DNA from: Candidatus Sumerlaeia bacterium
GTDB taxonomy: Bacteria; Sumerlaeota; Sumerlaeia; SLMS01; JAHLLQ01
Length of the DNA: 64,000 nt
Assembly: GCA_019634695.1 (NCBI GenBank)
Contig: JAHCAW010000006.1
Coordinates: 62,001-126,000, forward strand
Reading direction: 5' to 3'
Shown here piece by piece: positions 40,537 to 45,391 of this stretch. Below the pieces are notes generated by a model. It ran no database searches. It was not told the origin of the DNA and worked only from the letters and a program-made list of their open reading frames with translations. The translations under genes and the position numbers were made by a program. How positions within the stretch are numbered: position 1 is the stretch's first letter; each line of letters begins with the position of its first letter.

Positions 40537-41454
40537 ATGATCACCGGCACCTTCCTCGACGAAATCAGCCACGACATCCCCGACGCCAACTGGGGACGCG
40601 ACGAGTGGACGCGCGACTTCCGCGCCATGGCCGACACCGGCATCGACACCGTCATCCTGATCCGCGCCGGCTATCGCGACATCGCCACCTTCGATTCCAA
40701 GGTCCTGCGCCGCGAGCACCCCCACCTCATCGTCGCCGACGACCAGGTCGGCATGTTCCTCGACCTCGCCGAGCGCCACGGAATGACCTTCTACTTCGGC
40801 ACCTACGACTCGGGCCGCTACTGGCACAGCGGCCAGCACGACCGCGAGGCCGACCTCAACATCGCCTTCACCGAGGAGTTCATCTCGCGCTACGGCCACT
40901 GCAAGGCCTTCGGCGGCTGGTACATCAGCCACGAGATCAACTCCTTCGACGAAGGCGTCATGAAGGTCTACGAGCGCCTGGCCGGGCACCTGAAGTCCCT
41001 GCGCGACCTGCCCATCCTGATTTCCCCATACATCCGCGGCGTGAAGCAGTTCGGCGCCGAGCAGGCCATCGGCCTGAGCGAACACGAGCGCGAGTGGCGC
41101 GAAGTCTTCGCCCGCATCCGCGGCCACGTCGATATCGTCGCCTTCCAGGACGGGCACGTGGACTACGCCGTGCTGCCCGACTACCTGGCGGTCAACGCCG
41201 CCCTCGCACGCGAGCACGGCATCGCCTGCTGGTCCAACATCGAAAGCTTCGACCGCGACATGCCGATCAAGTTCCCGCCCATCGGCTGGCGCAAGATGCG
41301 CTACAAGATGCAGGCAGCCATGCGTGCCGGCGTCGACAAGCTTATCACTTTCGAGTTCTCGCACTTCATGAGCCCGAACTCGATCTACCCGGCGGCGCAC
41401 ACGCTGCACCGGCGCTACATGGAATTCAAGCGCGCCGCCGACACGGCGGTCTGA
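40537..41454 (+). CDS. DUF4434-type TIM-barrel glycoside-hydrolase-like protein
   Basis: 305 residues without a signal peptide. Begins MITGTFLDEISHDIPDANWGRDEWTRDFRAMADTGIDTVILIRAGY, the standard N-terminus of the DUF4434 family, which adopts a glycosidase-like barrel. HCKAFGGWYISHEIN and DIVAFQDGHVDY are the strands that hold acidic residues in relatives. YWHSGQHDREADL is a loop variant. Activity has not been established for the family as far as I know, and the lack of an export signal would suit intracellular oligosaccharides. It faces the TPR gene across a 216-bp divergent spacer. Confidence 0.8.
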   Translation: MITGTFLDEISHDIPDANWGRDEWTRDFRAMADTGIDTVILIRAGYRDIATFDSKVLRREHPHLIVADDQVGMFLDLAERHGMTFYFGTYDSGRYWHSGQHDREADLNIAFTEEFISRYGHCKAFGGWYISHEINSFDEGVMKVYERLAGHLKSLRDLPILISPYIRGVKQFGAEQAIGLSEHEREWREVFARIRGHVDIVAFQDGHVDYAVLPDYLAVNAALAREHGIACWSNIESFDRDMPIKFPPIGWRKMRYKMQAAMRAGVDKLITFEFSHFMSPNSIYPAAHTLHRRYMEFKRAADTAV

Positions 41455-41641
41455 CGCGTCCCCAATCCGAACCCGGAGCGTGAGCGACGAGCCCGCTCAG
41501 GCATACCGGTCGCTGCTCGCTGCCCCCAACCAATGCCGGCCGTCCCCCACGGGCTCGCAGTGGACCAGTCGCGCCGCGTCCGTTTCGCATGAGCCCCGAC
41601 AATCGGGGTCCCGCCGATACAACGCGGCAGTCGTGTGGAAA

Positions 41642-41959
41642 TCAGGGACTCGCGCGGTGGTCCAGTTCCCGGATCATGCGATCAACGACGCGGCCGAGTT
41701 CCGGAATCTGGACCGTGCATGTCAGGAAGACGATCTCGGGGTATCGGGGGAGATACTTCCCCTCAGTGACGCGGTCGAGGCGCTTGACTGCTTCGCCTAT
41801 TGCAAGCAGGACAAGGCAGATGGAATCGAGCAAGGCTTCGCCATCGGAGGTGGCGGTGAAGTCTGCGGGGGCGGCAATGCGCCGCATGCGCAAGGTGATG
41901 CGCTCGATGAGCTCGCGCAAGGCGAGCAATTGGTCCCGCAGGATATCGGCATCACACAT
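41642..41959 (-). CDS. hepT: HepT-like (DUF86) toxin, apparently lacking the HEPN active-site segment
   Basis: 105 residues. The N-terminal 75 residues fit the DUF86/HepT family (ILRDQLLALRELIERITLRMRRI..., LLDSICLVLLAIGEAVKRLDRVTEGKYLPRYPE). In relatives the YP(E/D/Q) is followed by about 22 residues containing the HEPN RNase motif (a W-x-G-x-R-[D/N]-x4-H block). Here YPE runs straight into IVFLTCTVQIPELGRVVDRMIRELDH, which corresponds to the segment after that motif. Reading across is in frame, so it looks like an in-frame internal deletion near plus-strand position 41734. The only R..H left (RELDH) is in the wrong place. An RNase function is therefore unlikely. Overlaps mntA by 8 bp. Family alignment is from memory. 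Confidence 0.75.
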   Translation of the reverse strand: MCDADILRDQLLALRELIERITLRMRRIAAPADFTATSDGEALLDSICLVLLAIGEAVKRLDRVTEGKYLPRYPEIVFLTCTVQIPELGRVVDRMIRELDHRASP

Positions 41960-42242
41960 AGACGGCCTCCCCGTCGATGCGGCGCTTGAGGCGGGGCGGC
42001 AAATCGCCCCGGTAGCGAACCAGGTCGACGGAGGCGCCCAGATGCTCTTCGAGTTCGAGCCGGAGTCCCACCATGGTCCAGAGATCGTGCGGCGGCAGGT
42101 CGATGACGACATCGATGTCGCTGTCGTCACGCGCTTCGTCGCGAGCCACGGAACCGAACAGACCGAGACGCCTGACGCTGTACTTGCGCTCGAACGCTGG
42201 CTTGCACTCGCGCAGGATGCTCAATGCTTGGTCGCGATTCAC
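41952..42242 (-). CDS. mntA: Minimal nucleotidyltransferase antitoxin (MntA-type)
   Basis: 96 residues from a GTG start with GGAGG about 8 nt upstream. Compact nucleotidyltransferase of the MNT class: LGLFGSVARDEARDDSDIDVVIDL has the GSx10DxD catalytic core, and a third acidic position lies near ASVDLVRY. In type VII toxin-antitoxin systems, MntA adds AMP groups to a tyrosine near the HEPN motif of HepT and so silences it. Here the partner HepT seems to have lost that region, so MntA may be an orphan or have other targets (inference). The frame is intact. Confidence 0.85.
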   Translation of the reverse strand: MNRDQALSILRECKPAFERKYSVRRLGLFGSVARDEARDDSDIDVVIDLPPHDLWTMVGLRLELEEHLGASVDLVRYRGDLPPRLKRRIDGEAVYV

Positions 42243-42399
42243 GCGGACACCTCCGCCATCCCCCTAATGCCTCTCGAGTGATCGGTCGACAACATGGCTT
42301 GGGGGGGCTCGTCGGATGCGGGGATGCGGCCTGTCGCTGGGAAGGCCTATGGGATTCCTCGCCGCGAGCCGCGGACGGGTCAAGGCGAAGCCCCGCGGC

Positions 42400-43191
42400 C
42401 TACAAATCCCCCAAGTCCTTGCGCACGCGTTCGATGTGGCGGGCGGCGCCGGTGAGGGGATCGACCGAGACCAGGACGCCGCACAGACGCACGTCGCGCG
42501 GCTCGGCGACGTCGAAGCGTCGCGGCCGCAGCGTCAGCAGCGCCTCGAGCACCGCCTGCCGATCCGCGCCGATCACCGACTCGTACGGCCCCGTCATCCC
42601 CGAGTCCGTGATGTAGGCCGTGCCGTGCGGCAGCACGCGCTCGTCGGCCGTCGGGATGTGGGTGTGGGTGCCGACGACGGCGGTGGCGCGACCGTCGAGA
42701 TACCACCCCATGGCGACCTTCTCGCTGGTGGTCTCGGCGTGGAAGTCGACGAACAGGATCGCCGTGCGCTCGCGCATCTCGTCCAGCACGCGGTCGGCGG
42801 CGCGATAGGGGTCGTCGAAGTTTTCCATGAAGGCGCGGCCGCACAGGTTCAGCACTCCGATGGGAAAGCCGGCGGCGGTGTTGAAGACTCCCCAGCCCTG
42901 GCCGGGCGTGCCCGGCGGAAAGTTCTCGGGCCGCAGCAGGCGCGGCTCGGCATCGAAGACGGCGTTGGAGTCGCGCTGGTAGAAGCTGTGATTGCCGCCG
43001 GTCAGCACATCGACGCCGCGGCCCAGCAGTTCCTCGACGATCTTGGCGGTGACGCCCTTGCCACCGGCCGAGTTCTCGCAGTTGGCGATCACGACATCGA
43101 CGGCATGCTCGCGGCGCAAATCGGGCAGGGCCTTGCGGACGGCCTCGCGGCCGGGCCGGCCGTAAATGTCGCCGATGAAGAGGATGTTCAT
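42400..43191 (-). CDS. ymdB: YmdB-type metallophosphoesterase (TIGR00282)
   Basis: 263 residues, full length. All metal ligands are visible: MNILFIGDIYGRPGR, ANCENSAGGKG (N and E), TGGNHSFYQ, FVDFHAETTSEKVAMGWYLDGR and VGTHTHIPTADERVLPHGTAYITDSGMTGP. Members of this family cleave 2',3'-cyclic nucleotides with two metal ions, and affect biofilm and motility in Bacillus. Cytoplasmic. It follows a 107-residue hypothetical gene by 23 bp, which suggests co-transcription. Confidence 0.92.
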   Translation of the reverse strand: MNILFIGDIYGRPGREAVRKALPDLRREHAVDVVIANCENSAGGKGVTAKIVEELLGRGVDVLTGGNHSFYQRDSNAVFDAEPRLLRPENFPPGTPGQGWGVFNTAAGFPIGVLNLCGRAFMENFDDPYRAADRVLDEMRERTAILFVDFHAETTSEKVAMGWYLDGRATAVVGTHTHIPTADERVLPHGTAYITDSGMTGPYESVIGADRQAVLEALLTLRPRRFDVAEPRDVRLCGVLVSVDPLTGAARHIERVRKDLGDL

Positions 43192-43840: not shown

Positions 43841-44479
43841 ATGAAGAACCAACGTCAAGCATTCACCCTGATCGAGCTGCTGATCGTGGTGGCCATCATC
43901 GCGATTCTGGCGGCCATCGCCGTCCCGAACTTCCTGGAGGCGCAGGTGCGCTCGAAGGTCAGTCGCGTCGCCTCCGATATGCGCAGCCTTGCCACGGCCG
44001 TCGAAGCCTACCGCGTCGATTACAACAAGATGTTCCCCACTTACCGAATCACCGCGGCCGAAAGCCGGGTCTTCATTTGGGGATACGTCACCACCCCGGT
44101 GGCCTATATCACCAGCGCCCCGCGCGATCCGTTCAACATTTCCGACACCGATCCGAACAACCGCGTCGTCACCATCTGGGGACCCGACTACATCGATGGC
44201 AACGTCACCGTCCGCCATCGCAACGGTGCCTCGGCCACGATCGGCAGCACCGAGACGCGCAGTGCCACCTTCTTCGATCCGTACCCGGGCTACGTGGCCT
44301 CGCCGAACACGGGCAACGGTGGCGGCACGATGCTGAAGAACAACTTCTGGGTCATGATCAGTTGGGGCCCGGACCAGGTGTTCGACATCCTGAACCCGAC
44401 CTTCCCTTCCCCGCTGACGCCGTACGATCCGACGAACGGCACCGTCAGCGCCGGCGACGTGACGCGCTTCCAGCAGTAA
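43841..44479 (+). CDS. Type II secretion/type IV-like prepilin (pseudopilin), copy 1
   Basis: 212 residues. Short basic leader MKNQRQA, then the class III prepilin site: cleavage before FTLIELLIVVAIIAILAAIA with Glu at mature position +5. After the helix comes a FLEAQVRSKVSRVASDMRSL block, typical of pseudopilins in Hydrogenedentes/Sumerlaeota-like bacteria. The globular part has SWGPDQVFDILNP and ends YDPTNGTVSAGDVTRFQQ. No prepilin peptidase or GspE/F gene is adjacent. A GGAGAGA ribosome site lies about 9 nt before the ATG. Terminator at 44556. Confidence 0.92.
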   Translation: MKNQRQAFTLIELLIVVAIIAILAAIAVPNFLEAQVRSKVSRVASDMRSLATAVEAYRVDYNKMFPTYRITAAESRVFIWGYVTTPVAYITSAPRDPFNISDTDPNNRVVTIWGPDYIDGNVTVRHRNGASATIGSTETRSATFFDPYPGYVASPNTGNGGGTMLKNNFWVMISWGPDQVFDILNPTFPSPLTPYDPTNGTVSAGDVTRFQQ

Positions 44480-44593: not shown

Positions 44594-44725
44594 GTCATGC
44601 CCAAGCGCAAGCGCCCGGTTCACGGATTGGACTTGGCAGACCGGTCGGGGCTGGTCCAGCGTCCCTACGCTGGCATTCGGGCACCCATCCACGAGCCTTG
44701 GCGCGACTCGGAGCGCTTTTCACCC

Positions 44726-45391
44726 ATGACACGCCCTTTCCAGATTCGCCGGTTCGGCTTTACCCTGATCGAGCTGCTGATCGTCGTGGCCATCATCGCG
44801 ATTCTGGCGGCGATTGCGGTGCCGAACTTTCTTGAGGCGCAGACGCGCTCGAAGGTCAGCCGGACGAAGGCGGATCTGCGGTCGATCGCCGTGGCGCTCG
44901 AGGCCTATGCGGTGGACCACACCAAGTTCCCCGTCAAGCTGGGCAGCCCGATGCCGGCCGGTGTGGTCGGCAACACGCCCGGTTCGGGGCTTGGCTCCTG
45001 GATTCCCCAGACGCTGGAGGACGGCAGCTCCATCACGACGCCCGTGGCCTACATGACCTCGGTGCCGCGCGATGCCTTCAACGTCAGCAGTCCGATCACG
45101 GCGGCCGTGCCGGCCAGCCACCCGATTCGCAGCTTCCGTTACTATCGCAACGTCCTGCCTCCGCTGAACACGGCGACGGCGGACACCGTTCGTGGCTCGG
45201 ACCAGAACGGGGCCCAGCTCCTGGCCCCCGGCCTGACGCGCTTGGACCGCTGGGGCGCCTGGTACATGCTCTCCTTCGGACCCGACCTCGATGACGACAT
45301 CCCCGGCATCAGCAATCGCTATGACCCGACCAACGGCACCGTCTCCAACGGGGACATCTACTACAGCCAGAAGGCCAACTTCGAGAACTGA
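44726..45391 (+). CDS. Type II secretion/type IV-like prepilin (pseudopilin), copy 2
   Basis: 221 residues. Leader MTRPFQIRRFG, then the same FTLIELLIVVAIIAILAAIA helix and a FLEAQTRSKVSRTKADLRSIA block. From the helix through that block, the DNA is nearly identical to copy 1 for about 100 bp; the globular parts then diverge, but the last segment (FGPDLDDDIPGISNRYDPTNGTVSNGD) again resembles copy 1. So it is a tandem duplicate with a changed middle. The product would assemble into the same pseudopilus or be an alternative surface pilin. Ends at a terminator with a T-tract at 45454. Confidence 0.92.
   Translation: MTRPFQIRRFGFTLIELLIVVAIIAILAAIAVPNFLEAQTRSKVSRTKADLRSIAVALEAYAVDHTKFPVKLGSPMPAGVVGNTPGSGLGSWIPQTLEDGSSITTPVAYMTSVPRDAFNVSSPITAAVPASHPIRSFRYYRNVLPPLNTATADTVRGSDQNGAQLLAPGLTRLDRWGAWYMLSFGPDLDDDIPGISNRYDPTNGTVSNGDIYYSQKANFEN

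Follow-up and report, generated by a model that had tools for sequence, protein, structure and literature searches.

Our preferred reading, to which we assign a probability of roughly 0.78, is that the window (the whole stretch of 64,000 nucleotides analyzed) carries a type VII (HepT/MntA, HEPN-MNT) toxin-antitoxin module, probably of horizontal origin, whose toxin was inactivated by a single in-frame 69-nt deletion and which is now an ordinary relic. The locus comprises the following features:

40537..41454, plus strand: conserved convergent flanking gene, with 83% protein identity in the same-genus genome.
41642..41959, minus strand: hepT, an internally deleted HEPN (HepT-like) toxin gene of 105 aa; the reading frame is open, with a normal start and stop.
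41731..41732, minus strand: junction of the hepT deletion, where codon 76 (ATC, I) is directly followed by codon 77 (GTC, V); all full-length relatives have a further 23 codons (69 nt) at this point.
41952..42242, minus strand: mntA, a minimal nucleotidyltransferase of 96 aa with a GTG start and an intact GSX10DXD motif.
42400..43191, minus strand: metallophosphoesterase-like flanking gene, upstream of the module on the same strand and present in 12 of the 12 relatives searched.

The hepT frame runs from an ATG at 41959 to a stop codon ending at 41642. mntA lies directly upstream, and the two genes share 8 bp, an overlap usual for such pairs. Of the features by which a HepT/MntA module is recognized, an MNT antitoxin with GSX10DXD and an antitoxin gene placed directly upstream of the HEPN gene are both present here; a HEPN toxin with RX4-6HXY is not.

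Alignment of the window HepT, first with 7 and then with 14 full-length members of its subfamily, reveals a single gap of exactly 23 residues (69 nt, in frame) between I76 and V77, which corresponds to window positions 41732/41731. The missing residues are present in all 14 relatives. The initial annotation had proposed that the HepT at 41642-41959 carries an internal in-frame deletion of about 22 residues with a junction at 41734; this is borne out, with slightly adjusted length and position. At this place the closest relative, G072, reads RYPDVDWKNAKGMRDIITHHYANVDATTVFFTCKRKMPRLLETIRRMIREFE, and the window protein reads RYPEI-VFLTCTVQIPELGRVVDRMIRELD. In the pairwise alignment of the two (64 bits, E 2e-19), ...RYPDV[DWKNAKGMRDIITHHYANVDATT]VFFTCKRKMPRLLETIRRMIREFE stands against ...RYPEI[gap]VFLTCTVQIPELGRVVDRMIRELD. 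Because both flanks align and are clearly homologous to G072, an alignment accident is ruled out.

The missing stretch contains W, G, R-D and H-H-Y, some of the best-conserved residues in the subfamily. The subfamily motif R-D-x3-H-H-Y, i.e., RX4HXY, is invariant in the other 14 members and lies wholly within the window's gap. For the HepT of Shewanella, the reported active RNase motif is RX4H, and the tyrosine of RX4HXY receives three AMPs from MntA (PMC7641770). As judged from the alignment, the deletion takes out all of RX4HXY, and with it both the helix on which the proposed catalytic Arg and His lie and the Tyr that MntA poly-AMPylates in characterized systems; the early suggestion that the lost stretch holds both the HEPN motif and the AMPylated tyrosine agrees with this result. 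An R-x4-6-H motif elsewhere in the protein, named at the outset as the finding that would speak against this view, was not found beyond a single R-x6-H string at residues 94-101 (RMIRELDH). As a compensating motif this string was rejected: it is misplaced in the last helix, is not followed by x-Y, and occurs at chance frequency, being present in 31% of shuffles.

Outside the gap, the window HepT matches 25 of the 34 subfamily-conserved columns (74%; intact members, 62-100%). There is no stop or frameshift in the gene, and nothing beyond the gap is visibly decayed. With hepT otherwise free of decay, the deletion event is probably recent, although constraint on what is left of HepT would leave the same picture.

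Profile searches and structure prediction are in line with such a loss. The window HepT scores 12.1 bits against Pfam PF01934, under the gathering cut-off of 23.5, and it is missing from the matches listed for this profile across the whole genome; at the profile level it matches the HepT fold family with an E-value of about 6e-4. Its homology marks the protein as a HepT by descent, despite the sub-threshold Pfam score. The lost stretch corresponds to residues 78-100 of the intact relative L038, which in its AlphaFold model make up all of helix 79-94 and the beginning of helix 98-107. The 105-aa window protein is modeled as a compact helical protein with a mean pLDDT of 84, just one of five models, from a four-row alignment, exceeding 74; its helix 2 is complete. 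The initial annotation had recommended an AlphaFold model as a check, and the outcome leans towards its claim: in Foldseek searches of the PDB with the intact L038 model, ranks 1, 5 and 6 are taken by the HEPN toxin 8xdj and rank 14 by the HEPN-MNT complex 8xeh, and no HEPN is among the best 50 matches listed for the model of the deleted protein, a result that is indicative, not decisive, both models coming from four-row alignments and Foldseek E-values being above 0.09. We infer that the shortened HepT would no longer fold as a dimeric HEPN RNase, and that it would be non-toxic and could not be AMPylated on the canonical tyrosine.

The MntA partner was described initially as intact, and this is correct. 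GSX10DXD is kept (GSVARDEARDDSDID), as is the later conserved VDxV aspartate, and alignment with seven partner MntAs of the subfamily shows that nothing essential is missing and that most subfamily positions are retained. The protein matches Pfam PF01909 above the cut-off (3e-13) and the NCBIfam MntA_antitoxin model below it (E 6.7e-11; 42 bits against a cut-off of 60 bits). Its best paralogues in the same genome share no more than about 40% identity with it. MntA also matches the PADLOC phage-defense-candidate models PDC-S09 (6.6e-24), which carry no description.

The deletion looks private to the window genome. The short HepT form was not found in 99 relatives, in the 39-genome class, in a collection of genome contigs, in viral contigs, or in plasmid and phage collections. 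Nor was it found in any other of 386 broader genomes, so that the many homologues of the same short form which the initial annotation had named as counterevidence did not appear; the full-length subfamily members found in these 386 genomes keep the motif. Within the window's class, RX4-6HXY is kept in 23 of 23 other distinct HepT loci whose motif was located by pattern, a few further weak matches being left out of this count. An R-x4-H-x-Y string is likewise present in L003, a different HepT copy from the genome of the window.

The recognizable relatives form one HepT subfamily, comprising G072, Bacteroidales and Margulisiibacteriota MAGs, Bacteroidales and Sulfurimonas plasmids, and others. 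No other member of this subfamily occurs in the window's class (39 genomes, including the same-genus genome G001), and GC3 is 0.75 in hepT and 0.79 in mntA, as against 0.85-0.94 in four nearby genes. Because the subfamily is absent elsewhere in the class and GC3 is lower in both genes, the module was probably acquired horizontally. The metallophosphoesterase-like gene at 42400..43191 (-), which we take to be YmdB-like, shares 76.6% DNA identity with the copy in the same-genus genome. Both flanking genes exist in G001, where they are rearranged and lie about 11 kb apart; since the flanks are rearranged in this relative, the comparison places the module at or near a rearrangement breakpoint.

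Some further observations concern the neighborhood at large. In the comparison of window 40537-43191 with G001 C11 (L067), the ymdB-like gene is in the other relative orientation. Positions 43841-44479 and 44597-45391 hold two adjoining type IV prepilin-like genes with near-identical N-terminal segments (FTLIELLIVVAIIAILAAIAVPNFLEAQ-RSKVSR), and both of these genes match one position in the same-genus genome (BLASTN).

Decay of hepT recurs within the subfamily. Besides the window, 4 broken hepT genes were seen among about 22 subfamily copies, with lesions unrelated to that of the window, sequencing error being possible for individual copies. In L072 (Parabacteroides distasonis plasmid NZ_OY725812.1, about 1500-1860), hepT has an in-frame stop and, exactly between RDVI and HHY and hence inside RX4HXY, a frameshift; the gene is unannotated in the record, and mntA upstream reads open. 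In L135 (Bacteroides finegoldii plasmid NZ_OY725940.1, 904-1257), an in-frame stop splits hepT, which is annotated as two ORFs (‘hypothetical protein’ and ‘DUF86 domain-containing protein’), and mntA upstream is again open. The hepT of L114 has two stops and a changed C-terminus, and the adjoining mntA frame is without GSX10DXD; the hepT of L133 is damaged at its 5' end, and its mntA also has a stop. A broken hepT beside an open mntA is the pattern expected if toxin loss must precede antitoxin loss. In published TA surveys, truncated toxins next to a surviving antitoxin are reported to be common, and defective toxin genes to make up as much as 30-50% of the homologues of some TA families; for chromosomal TA systems, homologues with truncated toxins are documented (PMC7280312).

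The following course of events is proposed. One in-frame 69-nt deletion would have deprived hepT of its RX4HXY helix and left the toxin inactive. Losing a costly toxin by mutation while the antitoxin is spared would be harmless or favored, and mntA, not yet decayed, would be expected to decay in turn. The short form looks private, hepT decay is recurrent, and no HEPN is among the 50 matches listed for the model of the deleted protein; simple toxin decay suffices to explain everything seen. The initial annotation had called the system disarmed or repurposed: the first term stands, and the second finds no positive support. A decoy or immunity role for the short HepT, also put forward there, is not upheld, given a short form seen in no second genome and hepT decay that recurs in the subfamily.

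There is, nevertheless, a point to be made against decay. Two thirds of random deletions are not in frame. The deletion in hepT is in frame and the remainder of the gene looks constrained, both of which would fit a retained shortened protein as well. The disarmed module might be kept because MntA, perhaps with the short HepT as a scaffold, protects against incoming toxins of the same subfamily (anti-addiction) or modifies another target. This we consider unlikely. MntA does retain its catalytic motifs and most subfamily positions, hepT is still open, and among other TA and restriction-modification systems there are described cases of a solitary antitoxin that weakens killing by a related system (PMC3874152). 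However, an intact MntA is equally expected after a recent event, and there is no second short-form copy in which selection could be tested. The other HepTs of this genome are so remote in sequence that they make unlikely targets: tblastn with the window HepT matches only itself in its own genome, and BLASTP comparison with two of the others gave no meaningful alignment. Because the three other HepTs each adjoin an MNT match of their own and the two compared are dissimilar, an in-genome immunity or decoy role is unlikely. A stronger version seems to us very improbable: a single in-frame deletion would here have domesticated a type VII module, the short HepT being stably kept as a partner without catalysis that lets MntA work on its own as an AMPylase, be it for immunity to related HepT toxins or on another target.

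Toxin decay must also be weighed against explanations in which hepT, or its toxicity, is not lost. The population might carry an intact hepT, with the 69 nt missing from the consensus through assembly error or a minority strain variant. The genome is an incomplete assembly (127 contigs, 86% complete), and everything outside the gap looks undamaged; an exactly in-frame loss of 69 nt inside a gene is, however, not a typical assembly error, and we rate this explanation as quite improbable. As to toxicity, motif loss alone is no proof of its loss, because the Arg and His of RX4HXY are dispensable for RNase activity and toxicity in the Legionella HEPN (PMC11586414) and toxicity has been scored for some HEPNs that have no such motif (PMC3710099). 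The short protein could act through a different active site or through RNA binding: the Legionella HEPN relies on Q44/E47, which lie in helix 2, and its toxicity survives the mutations R98A and H103A (PMC11586414); helix 2 is undamaged in the window protein. Yet removal of a whole core helix and of the Y-loop is far more than the loss of two side chains; the Y-loop, which connects alpha4 and alpha5, contributes to the dimer interface in the Legionella HEPN. Moreover, without the tyrosine MntA could not neutralize the toxin in the known way, which would make an active toxin hard to tolerate. Continued toxicity is, in our opinion, very improbable.

Inactivation of the toxin by deletion thus remains the preferred reading. 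On this reading the locus clearly exemplifies a HepT/MntA pair that decays from the toxin side first, the lesion lying exactly over the catalytic and AMPylation segment, and it fits the published picture in which chromosomal TA systems drift towards loss of toxicity. It is also a warning that an annotated MntA neighbor is no guarantee of an active HepT. For the domestication of AMPylating antitoxins, the locus would be informative only if the short form turned out to be conserved.

Among experimentally characterized systems, HepT/MntA of Shewanella oneidensis (SO_3166/SO_3165; PDB 5yep, 6m6u, 6m6v; PMC7641770) shares with the window the antitoxin-then-toxin order, a GSX10DXD MntA and, at the profile level, the HepT fold. 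Unlike it, the window HepT is without RX4HXY and the helix that bears it; the two are otherwise very distant and belong to different HepT subfamilies. The HEPN-MNT pair of Legionella pneumophila (PDB 8xdj, 8xeh; PMC11586414) is the best fold match of the intact L038 model, but its toxin is complete, with catalysis assigned to Q44/E47 instead of RX4HXY, whereas the window toxin is deleted. Much closer are the full-length members of the window's own subfamily, namely G072, L036 and L037 (Bacteroidales MAGs), L038 (Margulisiibacteriota), and L069-L071 (Bacteroidales and Sulfurimonas plasmids). Across all that remains of the window HepT these are 30-40% identical to it, a distance at which synonymous sites are saturated, and they have the same two-gene layout, but all of them keep the 23 residues with R-D-x3-H-H-Y. 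The degenerate copies L072 and L135 resemble the window in that hepT is broken and mntA open; they were broken by stops or a frameshift, and the window by a clean in-frame deletion.
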